NCBI RefSeq assembly: GCF_000152965.1
Contig: NZ_CH902583.1
Span: forward strand, 1,699,072-1,763,071
Length of the DNA: 64,000 bases
Origin: Roseobacter sp. MED193
Lineage (GTDB): Bacteria > Pseudomonadota > Alphaproteobacteria > Rhodobacterales > Rhodobacteraceae
Direction: 5' to 3'
Each line of letters starts with the position of its first letter. The stretch's first letter is position 1. A program made the position numbers and the translations under genes. This document shows positions 42,390 to 49,787 of the stretch, one piece after another. A model generated the notes under the pieces. It was not told the DNA's origin. It made no database searches and saw only the letters and a list, made by a program, of their open reading frames with translations.

Positions 42390-42403
42390 TTGACGTGGAT
42401 CAA
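42390..42403. promoter_or_regulatory. FNR-type site upstream of ccoG
   Basis: TTGAC-GTGG-ATCAA, nearly the FNR consensus TTGAT-N4-ATCAA. Its centre is about 71 bases before the ccoG start; with the usual -41.5 spacing transcription would begin near 42355. Confidence 0.8.
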
Positions 42404-42425: not shown

Positions 42426-43319
42426 TTATATATCACTTTCAGAAACATTGGTTTTTCGCTGGCGCCGCAACCAAGAGACAAACTGACGCGCCTGCATCCG
42501 CTGCACGCCCGGGCGGGTGACAATGTGATAGCCTCGGCCCTCATTTCCGGTGAATAACTCCACTAGGCGCCCCGCCTCCAAATCCTCCAGCACAAAATCC
42601 TGCACACTCACCGCGACACCCTGCCCTTCGCGCACCGCCTGCATCAAAAGATTTCCAGGCAATTTGATGCTCGCCCCCCGAATGACCTCGGCCACCCCGC
42701 GCGAACGCAGCCAATGTGCCGCCTCGGTGGTGCCCAGCTCTTCGAGCCAGGGCAGATCCAGCAGATCCTCCGGCGCCTTCACCACGCGATCCCGCAACAA
42801 GCTGGGATTTGCCACCACAACCATGGGGGAACAGAGCAGGATTTCAGCCTCTAAACCAGCCCAATTCCCGTCGCCGTAGCGCAGCGCAATATCAACGCCT
42901 CCGGGCTGAAGCGAGACGACCTCACCACGCGGATCGATCACGAGGTCGATATCCGGATGTTGCATGCGAAACTCTGCCAGACGCGGCATCAGCCAATTGG
43001 CGGCAAACATTGGTGTGCAGCTAATATGTAAGGGTCGCGCCGCACCCTGAGTGTTGAGATCCTGCACCGCCGACTGAATGGCCCCAAACCCCAGCAGCAA
43101 GGCCTGAGCCAGATGCCTGCCCTCCTCCGTCATCTCCAGAGACCGGCCACTGCGATCCAGCAACGGGGTGCCCAGGTATTCCTCAAGGCTACGAAGCTGC
43201 TGACTGATGGCAGCATGGCTGACATTAAGGGCTACGCCCGCCTTAGCGATATTTGCGTGTTCAGCATAGGAAGCAAAGGCCCTAAGGGCGGCAAGCGGCG
43301 GCATATTGAGCCAATCCAT
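42426..43319 (-). CDS. LysR-family regulator (GcvA-like)
   Basis: 297 residues from ATG 43319, AGGA six bases upstream. N-terminal winged helix with PPLAALRAFASYAEH and VSHAAISQQLRSLEEYLG; C-terminal effector-binding domain in two lobes. The sequence style (LPPLxALRAFxA, HISCTPMFAANWLMPRL) fits the GcvA/AmpR branch. Divergent from the 81-residue gene; a palindrome overlaps its own leader. Targets unknown. Confidence 0.9.
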   Translation of the reverse strand: MDWLNMPPLAALRAFASYAEHANIAKAGVALNVSHAAISQQLRSLEEYLGTPLLDRSGRSLEMTEEGRHLAQALLLGFGAIQSAVQDLNTQGAARPLHISCTPMFAANWLMPRLAEFRMQHPDIDLVIDPRGEVVSLQPGGVDIALRYGDGNWAGLEAEILLCSPMVVVANPSLLRDRVVKAPEDLLDLPWLEELGTTEAAHWLRSRGVAEVIRGASIKLPGNLLMQAVREGQGVAVSVQDFVLEDLEAGRLVELFTGNEGRGYHIVTRPGVQRMQARQFVSWLRRQRKTNVSESDI

Positions 43320-43339: not shown

Positions 43340-43419
43340 ATATAATTTTTCCTGAGTCGCATCTTGGCCGTTTTGCAGCGACAGTCAAAGGCAGAAACAT
43401 CAACACAGGAGATTTCAAG

Positions 43420-43665
43420 ATGCTCATCGATATCTATGCCCGCTCCATGATGACCGCGACGCGTCACCCTTGTGTCGAGGTCCGGGACCTAGTTGCACCG
43501 GCCTCAACGCCACAGGACCCGGCGCAAAAAGAGATTACAGACAAACGCTTCTCAGCTGTCTTCGCCAGATTGATCAAGCGGATCAAATACCTGACCACTG
43601 GGCTACGCCCGACAGTTCGCCATTTGAACCAACCGGTGCGCTGCATTGATCTGCAAAAGCTGTGA
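43420..43665 (+). CDS. 81-residue protein of unknown function
   Basis: Starts at ATG 43420 with AGGAG nine bases upstream. Basic, with a possible amphipathic helix (FSAVFARLIKRIKYL) in the C-terminal half; no signal peptide. Divergent from the LysR gene across a 100-base gap with a palindrome, so probably its target. Not recognised; a distant likeness to short Arg-rich DUF1127-like proteins is too weak to claim. Confidence 0.6.
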   Translation: MLIDIYARSMMTATRHPCVEVRDLVAPASTPQDPAQKEITDKRFSAVFARLIKRIKYLTTGLRPTVRHLNQPVRCIDLQKL

Positions 43666-43709
43666 GCTGTGAAAGCGGGGCTTGCATCTGGGGCAAGGGG
43701 GCAGAGCAT

Positions 43710-43861
43710 AAAGGGCGTCGGCTTTACAGGAAACGCGCGAACAGATCGAAAAGCCGACGCCTGATCCCCACAGCCTAGCACGTCTGGCCGCAGGAATATG
43801 TTGCTGACCAATCTCTGCCACCCAGAATAGGCGCAAGGCTAAGTCAGACCATCTCTATCTT
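43710..43861 (-). ncRNA. Candidate FnrL-dependent small RNA
   Basis: Prediction only. From the FNR site, -41.5 spacing leftward places a start near 43861; TTCAAT on the minus strand (43873-43868) matches TATAAT at four of six and lies at the right distance. About 100 bases on, arms GGCGTCGGCTTT and AAAGCCGACGCC (43714-43761) form a perfect 12 bp stem followed by CTTTAT, a possible 3' end. No open frame of note. A rightward RNA ending at 44080 is the alternative, but its -10 region is poor. Confidence 0.3.
43714..43761. terminator. 12 bp hairpin, terminator-like on the minus strand
   Basis: GGCGTCGGCTTT (43714-43725) and AAAGCCGACGCC (43750-43761) are perfectly complementary with a 24-base loop. 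On the minus strand CTTTAT follows; on the plus strand there is no T-run, so it is less likely to serve the 81-residue gene. Confidence 0.5.
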
Positions 43862-43895
43862 GAACGGATTGAAGCAGTCTCTATCGCCATGCGCT

Positions 43896-43909
43896 TTGAC
43901 TCTAATCAA
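43896..43909. promoter_or_regulatory. FNR-type site with no adjacent protein gene
   Basis: TTGAC-TCTA-ATCAA, the same quality as the ccoG site. The nearest start codon in the right direction is far away: the 81-residue gene reads towards it and ccoP ends 200 bases off. Confidence 0.65.
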
Positions 43910-44051
43910 ACTTGCCAGTTTATCTCCGCTTTGGGCGCGAATAATTGCACCTGGCCTTGGGACAATGCGTCCCGAAAGTCGAAGACCCGTTCCGGGTTCG
44001 CGGCTCTCACCTTCGCTGAGGCGTGTTTTGCAAGCACCACCACCGCATGAA

Positions 44052-44080
44052 AAAGGGCCACCCCAATCGGGCGGCCCTTT
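44052..44080 (-). terminator. Terminator of the ccoNOQP operon
   Basis: AAAGGGCC (44052-44059) and GGCCCTTT (44073-44080) pair around ACCCCAATCGGGC. On the minus strand the stem runs into TTTTT, 34 bases past the ccoP stop. Confidence 0.82.
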
Positions 44081-44113
44081 GCCTTGGTAATTTCAAACGC
44101 AAAAGCGCAGTGA

Positions 44114-44983
44114 TTATTCGCCGCCACCCAGCTGGTGCACATAGGCGGAAACCGCGCGAATCTGCGCCTCGGTCAGGCGGGTATTCCAAGCAGGCATCAC
44201 ACCGTAACGGGCGTTATTCACGGTCTCGCTCAGGGAAGCATAATCGCCGCCATAGAGCCAGATCGCATCCACGAGGTTCGGCGCGCCCTGGCTGCGATCG
44301 CCAGTACCATCATCCATGTGGCAGGAGGCACAGTTGTCTTCAAAGACCACGGCACCAGCATCCACTTTAGAGGCGTCCTCGGCCTCACCGGAAAGAGACA
44401 TGACAAAGTTTACAACCTGGTCGATCTCTTCTTTTTCCAGCAACTCATCCCGACCGAAGGCAGGCATCTCGGAGTAGCGCGCATCATCGCTGTCCTCATT
44501 GCGGATACCATGGGTGATGGTTTCGTGGATGTCCTCAACAGTCCCACCCCAGAGCCAGTCATCATCCAGCAGGTTGGGATAGCCCTTGGCACCGGCTGCC
44601 CCGGAACCGTGACACTGGGCACACCAGGTCTTGAAAACCGCTGAACCAGAAGACACCGCATAAGAGCCAAGCTCCGGATCGCCCGCAATCGCTGTCAGCT
44701 CAGCGGCTTCCAGCTTGGCATTGATTGGCGCGTTGGCCTCCTCCACAGCCTGGATTTCAGCCGCCACATCACCGCGAGTCGACCAGCCCAGAACGCCTGC
44801 GGTTGCCGAGCTCAACATCGGCCATGCCGGATAGGCGATGGTGTAACCAATGCCCCAGATGATAGTGGCGTAGAAAGTCCAGAGCCACCACCGTGGCATC
44901 GGGTTGTCGAATTCTTCGATACCGTCCCACTGGTGACCCGTGGTGTTTGGATCGTCATCGTATTTTTTGACGGGTTTGCTCAT
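44114..44983 (-). CDS. ccoP: Cbb3-type cytochrome c oxidase subunit III (CcoP)
   Basis: Membrane-bound dihaem cytochrome c that feeds electrons to CcoO/CcoN. 289 residues: one N-terminal helix after [18 protein letters not shown], then two cytochrome c domains with CAQCH (about 136-140) and CASCH (about 225-229). Axial Met residues lie in EMPAF and VMPAW. Start overlaps the ccoQ stop (ATGA). Confidence 0.97.
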
Positions 44984-47652: not shown

Positions 47653-47666
47653 TTGATCTGCATCAA
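47653..47666. promoter_or_regulatory. Perfect FNR site between ccoN and the stress protein gene
   Basis: TTGAT-CTGC-ATCAA matches the FNR consensus at all ten specified bases. Spacing of 41.5 towards ccoN puts the start near 47618 with TCTAAA as a possible -10. It may also serve the divergent usp gene. Confidence 0.88.
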
Positions 47667-49046: not shown

Positions 49047-49787
49047 CTAGCTCATATAGCCGCCGTCACTATCGTCGCCAGCTTCCTCGAACAGGCGCCC
49101 CATATCCGGCACAGAAACCCGGCGTTTGCCCTCCAAAGCAATCACCCCATCTTTTTTCAGGGCCGACATCTGTCGACTGACGGTTTCCAGCGTAAGGCCT
49201 AGGTAATCCGCCATGGCCTCACGGGTGAGCGGCAAATCAAACGTCATTTCATTGACCGCCCCGCGTGGCGTCAGCGAGGCATCACGTCGCGCAATGATCG
49301 TTAACAGGCTGGCAATTTTTTCCCGCGCGGTTTTGCGACCCAAAACCAGCATCCACTCGCGGGCGGCATCCAGCTCATCCAAGGTCATCTCTAGCAGGCG
49401 ATGGGCAATATGCGGCGTGTTTGCCATCAGGTCTTCAAAGGGTTTCTTGCGGAAACAGCACATCACAACATCGGTGGTCGCAACAACATTATAGGCCGCA
49501 CCATCGCGTCCGGGGCGGCCCACAAAATCGCTGGGCAACAACAAGCCAACCATCTGGGTGCGGCCATCTTCCATGGTTTGGGTCAGCGTCGCGATCCCGG
49601 AAACAACCGAGCCGACAAAATTCATCACATCGCCAGACCAAATGATTGGCTGCCCCGCTTCATAGCTGCGGTAGTATTTGATGCCGTCCAGCGCCTCAAG
49701 CTCATCTGCCTCACAGCGCGCGCAAACGGCGCGGTGGCGGATGGGACAGTCGGCACAGCTGATATGCGTAATGCTAGGAGCGTTCAT
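49047..49787 (-). CDS. fnrL: Oxygen-responsive Crp/Fnr regulator FnrL
   Basis: 246 residues. Cysteines at 11, 14, 22 and 25 and at 110/111 can bind an oxygen-labile 4Fe-4S cluster. Cyclic-nucleotide-like beta-roll, dimer helix and C-terminal HTH with LTREAMADYLGLTLETVSRQM, whose E-x2-SR contacts match FNR recognition of TTGAT. Expected to control the FNR-type sites in this window and, through the site 13 bases before its start, itself. Confidence 0.95.
   Translation of the reverse strand: MNAPSITHISCADCPIRHRAVCARCEADELEALDGIKYYRSYEAGQPIIWSGDVMNFVGSVVSGIATLTQTMEDGRTQMVGLLLPSDFVGRPGRDGAAYNVVATTDVVMCCFRKKPFEDLMANTPHIAHRLLEMTLDELDAAREWMLVLGRKTAREKIASLLTIIARRDASLTPRGAVNEMTFDLPLTREAMADYLGLTLETVSRQMSALKKDGVIALEGKRRVSVPDMGRLFEEAGDDSDGGYMS

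Follow-up and report, generated by a model that had tools for sequence, protein, structure and literature searches.

The window analysed here – a stretch of 64,000 nucleotides from Roseobacter sp. MED193, in whose coordinates all positions are given – carries, all on the minus strand and in this order, ccoNOQP, a hairpin behind ccoP, an FNR site (43896–43909), a structured stretch reaching to 43708, a LysR-family gene and ccoGHIS, the cco names being assigned from a reading of the translations. The upstream neighbour of the structured stretch, which is the predicted small RNA discussed below, is ccoP (44114–44983), and the hairpin between the two (44052–44080, minus strand), followed by TTTTT, is by our own reading the ccoP terminator. 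A consensus scan of both strands over 43400–44200, limited to promoters other than those of FNR and to loops of up to 8 nt, neither flagged this hairpin nor found any site resembling a promoter or a terminator. On the 3′ side of the RNA, a LysR-family regulator (42426–43319, minus strand, with Pfam LysR domains; its nearest NCBIfam entry is GcvA, with a score under the cut-off) occupies the hvrB position, the name for a LysR-family gene at this place being taken from PMC8632094. The oxygen-sensing regulator FnrL is encoded 5 kb from the RNA (49047–49787, minus strand) and scores 455 bits against the NCBIfam FnrL equivalog NF045989 (cut-off 300).

Between the regulator gene and the RNA lies a conserved small ORF of 81 amino acids (43420–43665, plus strand), divergent from the LysR gene, convergent with the RNA and not mentioned in the original prediction. 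Its start, Shine–Dalgarno sequence and N-terminus are preserved in 14 of the 15 loci tried; the product begins MLxDIYARSMMTAxR and often ends in RCIDxQNL, and matches no Pfam or NCBIfam family. Same-genus pairs show 0.31, 0.27 and 0.46 substitutions per codon position, which lends the ORF weak support as a coding sequence, because the counts for the nearest pair are 16, 18 and 20 by codon position.

The FNR site and its promoter

The palindromic site at 43896–43909 (TTGATTAGAGTCAA on the minus strand, with TTGACTCTAATCAA located at the same positions) is an exact match, one of four occurrences of TTGAYNNNNRTCAA in the window, against a mean of 0.17 and a largest count of 2 in 100 shuffles. With one mismatch permitted, the window holds five sites as against 5.17 by chance, and weight is therefore placed on exact sites only. 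The remaining exact sites lie 5′ of ccoG (42390–42403, minus strand), 5′ of ccoN (47653–47666, minus strand) and between fnrL and a hemN-like gene. The original prediction had singled out the site at 43896–43909 as one near which no protein gene begins, and within the tests made this agrees with the sequence: none of the short ORFs overlapping it (43860–44090 and 43889–44050 on the plus strand, 43906–44142 on the minus strand) has a Pfam match.

The TTCAAT that the same prediction had placed at class II −10 distance (43873–43868, minus strand), its centre about 32 nt from that of the FNR site, proved to be part of a conserved element. When 32 loci are aligned on the FNR centre, TGcTTnAaT appears on the RNA side at the spacing expected of a class II −10 (G 1.47, T 1.03, T 0.85, A 0.70 and T 0.63 bits), and in the window this corresponds to an extended −10, TGCTTCAAT, at 43868–43876 of the minus strand. 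The opposite side of the site shows, in the same 32 loci, a conserved A/T-rich stretch nearer the site, of at most 0.82 bits; at the class II position that side carries no strong signal. An RNA read rightward from the site, also envisaged at first, is accordingly rejected, the conserved −10 lying on the leftward side instead. The centre of the FNR site stands at −41.5 relative to the predicted minus-strand start at 43861, and class II spacing together with the fold gives both predicted ends of a small RNA of about 154 nt (43708–43861, minus strand). The leftward, FNR-controlled RNA of about 150 nt that had been proposed remains a prediction, now backed by the conserved site, −10, stem and spacing, as well as by covariation that is biased towards one strand.

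Structure and strand of the element

At the 3′ end of the predicted RNA, hairpin A (43714–43761, minus strand) is, as initially described, a perfect 12 bp stem (43714–43725 paired with 43750–43761) followed by CTTTAT. The corresponding CUUUAU tail is a weak U-run; among the 71 copies that were aligned, at least four of the first eight tail bases are U in 45, versus 34 on the other strand. Across these 71 copies, compensatory changes occur at 13 of the 18 predicted consensus pairs of hairpin A, with a wobble bias in favour of the minus strand.

The stem encloses a long loop, CUGUUCGCGCGUUUCCUG (43727–43744, minus strand), in which folding programs draw a few weak inner pairs. It contains the anti-Shine–Dalgarno stretch UUUCCU and is the proposed pairing region. 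It is near-invariant in the alignment, to a degree that is exaggerated because the first searches used the loop itself as bait; copies found by a covariance model show variants. Its CGCGCG is self-complementary, which makes loop–loop dimers possible. Next to hairpin A we read a second one, hairpin B (43765–43796, minus strand), with 11 pairs including G·U and a loop containing GACGUGC; its region folds at −17.7 kcal/mol on the minus and −8.5 on the plus strand.

The strand can be read from the fold and, more directly, from the wobble pairs. The stretch 43707–43861 has a folding z-score of −2.77 on the minus strand versus −1.10 on the plus strand, and the whole element folds better on the minus strand in 58 of the 71 copies. 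G·U pairs hold only on the transcribed strand; among 59 distinct stems there are 44 G·U cells on the minus strand versus eight A·C cells (which are G·U on the plus strand), and 11 columns favour minus, none plus, with one tied. The RNA is therefore assigned to the minus strand. A plus-strand RNA was seriously weighed, as many relatives have a good plus-strand hairpin B, and was rejected on the wobble bias and on the direction that the element has in common with ccoP. No match in the window reaches an Rfam gathering score; four Rfam matches with weak E-values were judged to be chance.

Distribution and genomic classes

Of 60 whole genomes searched at the DNA level (E ≤ 0.001), 16 match – the genome itself, 11 of the same genus and four more distant – and the part best preserved is the stem of hairpin A with its loop. 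Loss of site or stem in close relatives, which had been named as evidence that would tell against the prediction, did not occur: the exact FNR site and the stem are present in all 12 genus genomes searched, the source genome included, and at these 12 loci and L013 the exact site lies 157–169 nt from the loop. Among 295 genomes of the family, the loop (up to three mismatches) is found in 45, a few of these being chance coding matches, and the same kind of search in a public genome collection returns at least 118 stretches. Ninety-eight candidate copies were considered, and 71 retained and aligned; the 27 removed had weak stems or a coding-like context, 19 of them sharing one context common to Lysobacter/Xanthomonas relatives. 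Identical copies had been left out beforehand, as had L014–L023 (most of them repeats of kept loci or matches to the ccoP terminator only) and copies more than three mismatches from the two loop patterns, some of which may be real (L081, L122 and L166 have partial stems). The covariance model finds 138 of 292 Rhodobacterales genomes at E ≤ 0.001, all of them, among the matches listed, in one family, and 2 of 192 genomes across the class, both of that same family. All these copies come from related species, and their counts are not independent of each other.

The copies fall into two genomic classes. By tblastn, 38 of 70 immediately follow ccoP in the same orientation and 32 are free-standing (the 71st copy, L068, is unclassed). 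An FNR site within 220 nt is found at none of the 38 and at every one of the 32, where TTGANNNNNNTCAA lies 128–208 nt from the loop. A second set, from 40 of 50 model-found loci that were examined, divides in the same way: the site accompanies all eight free-standing copies and none of the 31 ccoP-linked ones. Among the ccoP-linked copies, 24 stand no more than 49 nt from ccoP and seven are later tandem copies, 103–196 nt away, which by distance alone would count as free-standing without an FNR site. Two of the 31 loci in this set (L175 and L178) are near-duplicates, sharing long exact stretches with loci found before, and do not count as independent. The second-set count omits copies from genomes already seen (L176, L179, L180, L181, L187 and L195), overlaps on the opposite strand, all of L202 and L203, L211 and the second L216 copy, and has one L205 copy added. 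The ACGUGC of hairpin B (43776–43785 in the window) also differs between the classes, occurring in 17 of 32 free-standing copies versus none of the 38 in ccoP 3′ UTRs.

Both forms stand side by side at two loci (L114 and L207), as a ccoP-linked copy, an FNR site and a second copy. Runs of two or three tandem copies behind ccoP occur at L204, L205, L206, L208, L212 and L216; in one genome (G482) the matches lie at two overlapping contig ends, and the copy number is ambiguous.

What the FNR site of the free-standing copies serves can be judged from its other side. At 15 free-standing loci, the window included, the end of ccoP and the site are separated by 101–302 nt. ORFs that start in this gap and run rightward differ from locus to locus (11 to 458 amino acids, and none in L012), so that the RNA is most likely what the site serves. 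Beyond the site at least 8 of the 16 other free-standing loci read have the start of a gene for a DUF2270-type membrane protein (L013, L032, L042, L061, L070, L078, L083 and L090, with family membership confirmed by Pfam for L090 only); in those loci the site may serve this gene instead, or be shared, driving transcription in both directions.

Most copies are found between ccoNOQP and ccoGHIS. One genome (G020, locus L355) has instead the order fnrL, usp, FNR site, RNA and ccoI; ccoNOQP, ccoG, ccoH and hvrB were not found at the locus, and the single ccoN of the genome, 53% identical, lies elsewhere. The FNR site of this genome is similar to the ccoN site, which suggests that loss of the oxidase genes left the RNA under the control of what had been the ccoN promoter.

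Proposed role and relation to known systems

We consider it probable that 43708–43861 encodes a small RNA, transcribed leftward from a class II FNR promoter and made at low oxygen, and that its loop pairs with mRNAs; it would be the free-standing form of an RNA element already in print as HRC-8-4. In many relatives the RNA would come instead from the ccoNOQP message, as the 3′ UTR of ccoP. In either form the stem of hairpin A would serve as 3′ end and stabiliser, displaying the fixed loop CUGUUCGCGCGUUUCCUG; the most likely action of this loop is to pair with target mRNAs at their Shine–Dalgarno regions and thereby reduce translation. Such pairing in trans is likely because the near-invariant loop holds an anti-Shine–Dalgarno stretch. 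The model for this mode of action is FnrS of E. coli, an FNR-activated small RNA made at low oxygen that pairs at target mRNAs and lowers translation.

From the FNR site and the linkage to ccoP, more RNA is predicted at low oxygen. Both forms would be made under that condition, on the assumption of an FNR-driven ccoN for the ccoP form; the FNR site at ccoN is an observation from this window only, and an FNR-driven ccoN is reported for R. sphaeroides in the part of PMC4263372 consulted.

Pattern searches for targets in the source genome gave no counts above their controls. Complements of the loop as a 17-mer (up to three mismatches) occur at 22 places, one of them the element itself, versus 23 for a reversed control, and none was judged a convincing start site; a 12-mer core with one mismatch gives 23 versus 43 in the control, and GGAAACGCG followed by ATG within 12 nt gives 9 versus 12. 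A redoxin-family gene (Pfam Redoxin) that starts with AGAGGAAACGCGCAATG or a close variant of it has 11 nt complementary to the loop, and GGAAACGCGCAATG stands at the start of this gene in 7 of 8 same-genus genomes (L297 and L300–L305). Among its peroxiredoxin orthologues, readable at 25 of 30 loci, the start match is present in the source genome's own copy and absent in the 24 from other genera, two of which (G116 and G123) have about equally strong pairing further upstream; a AAACGCAA-type motif recurs in the 5′ region of redoxin-family genes in several other genera. As a rough estimate, about one start match of this type is expected by chance, and the redoxin-family gene is a candidate target within the genus only, a lead and nothing firmer.

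The published account of HRC-8-4 (PMC8632094) suggests a terminator-type riboswitch or a terminator bound by HvrB, so that hairpin A, with a ligand or HvrB at its loop, would control read-through into hvrB or ccoG. The stem is indeed terminator-like with a conserved tip, and in 42 of the 70 classed copies hvrB lies on the same strand 264–605 nt 3′ of the RNA, with ccoG within 700 nt (from 171 nt) in 17 more. We nonetheless regard this explanation as unlikely: it leaves the FNR sites of the free-standing copies unexplained, hvrB lies upstream of the RNA in L214 and L218, the small ORF converges on the RNA from between it and hvrB in 21 of the 70 copies, and the presence of two or three copies in tandem behind ccoP is odd for a single switch. 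The same FNR sites, at 32 of 32 free-standing copies, would have to be those of relics if the element were only a processing or stability hairpin at the 3′ end of ccoNOQP. The position of 38 of the 70 classed copies, immediately after ccoP, fits such a role; stability alone, however, does not need a near-invariant loop, and the genome that has lost ccoNOQP from the locus has kept the RNA, which makes this view quite improbable.

Very improbable, finally, is that the FNR site belongs to a divergent gene, or to nothing, and that the functional RNA is the plus-strand 3′ UTR of the small ORF mRNA. The small ORF does converge on the stem, hairpin B alone folds better on the plus strand in 30 of the 71 copies, and DUF2270-type genes start beyond the site in some genomes. 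Against this stand the wobble bias of 44 to 8, the better minus-strand fold of the whole element in most copies, the detection of the small ORF in only 21 of the 70 classed copies and, at the 15 ccoP-adjacent free-standing loci, the absence of any like gene beyond the site.

The low-oxygen small RNA that we favour may belong to something wider. It is conceivable, and we hold it tentatively, that the element is a family-wide, FnrS-like regulator of Alphaproteobacteria supplied by two routes – the 3′ end of ccoNOQP and its own FNR promoter – with an 18-nt loop acting in trans, and that the free form arose by tandem duplication behind ccoP (two loci, L114 and L207, carry the two forms next to each other). 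An RNA so far in print without an assigned function would gain a concrete, testable role, in which a small RNA of low-oxygen conditions is linked to the high-affinity oxidase in a large group of marine bacteria. An RNA found in two states, as the tail of an mRNA and as a separate gene that has an FNR site to itself, in some loci both, also bears on how 3′ UTR small RNAs gain independence.

The hairpin A element seems to be HRC-8-4, a motif of Rhodobacterales with unknown function (RNA Biol. 2021, PMC8632094), by its described place, order and shape, compared through the text description rather than letter by letter. Both are confined to Rhodobacterales, lie between ccoNOQP and ccoGHIS, often have hvrB on the 3′ side and form a terminator-like stem with a conserved tip; behind the stem, where the published motif has a U-run, the window copy has CUUUAU. 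Unlike the published account, the window copy has its own FNR site and −10, tandem copies exist, and hvrB is sometimes upstream. The words ‘FNR’ and ‘oxygen’ are absent from the main text of PMC8632094, and its five uses of ‘sRNA’ all concern other RNAs. The name HRC-8-4 was found in no other paper among the main texts searched, and titles and opening lines of abstracts among the matches listed describe no other RNA at ccoP. The motif itself is thus already in print; new here are the compensatory changes, the minus strand, the FNR site and −10 of its own and the two genomic classes.

Small RNAs are also known from R. sphaeroides. RSs0019 and RSs2461 are reported near FnrL binding sites and resemble the RNA of the window in this respect, by description rather than sequence; the part of PMC4263372 consulted does not place them at ccoP. 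The UdsA–H RNAs and others derived from 3′ UTRs (PMC8625941 and PMC9779115, each consulted in part) are alike in coming from an mRNA 3′ end, with the difference that ‘cco’ is absent from the main text of PMC8625941, as it is from those of PMC4809877 and PMC5107571. FnrS, which is named in the part of PMC4263372 consulted, is alike as an FNR-activated, low-oxygen small RNA, a likeness drawn without comparing sequences; unlike in FnrS, the proposed pairing region here is the loop of the end stem.
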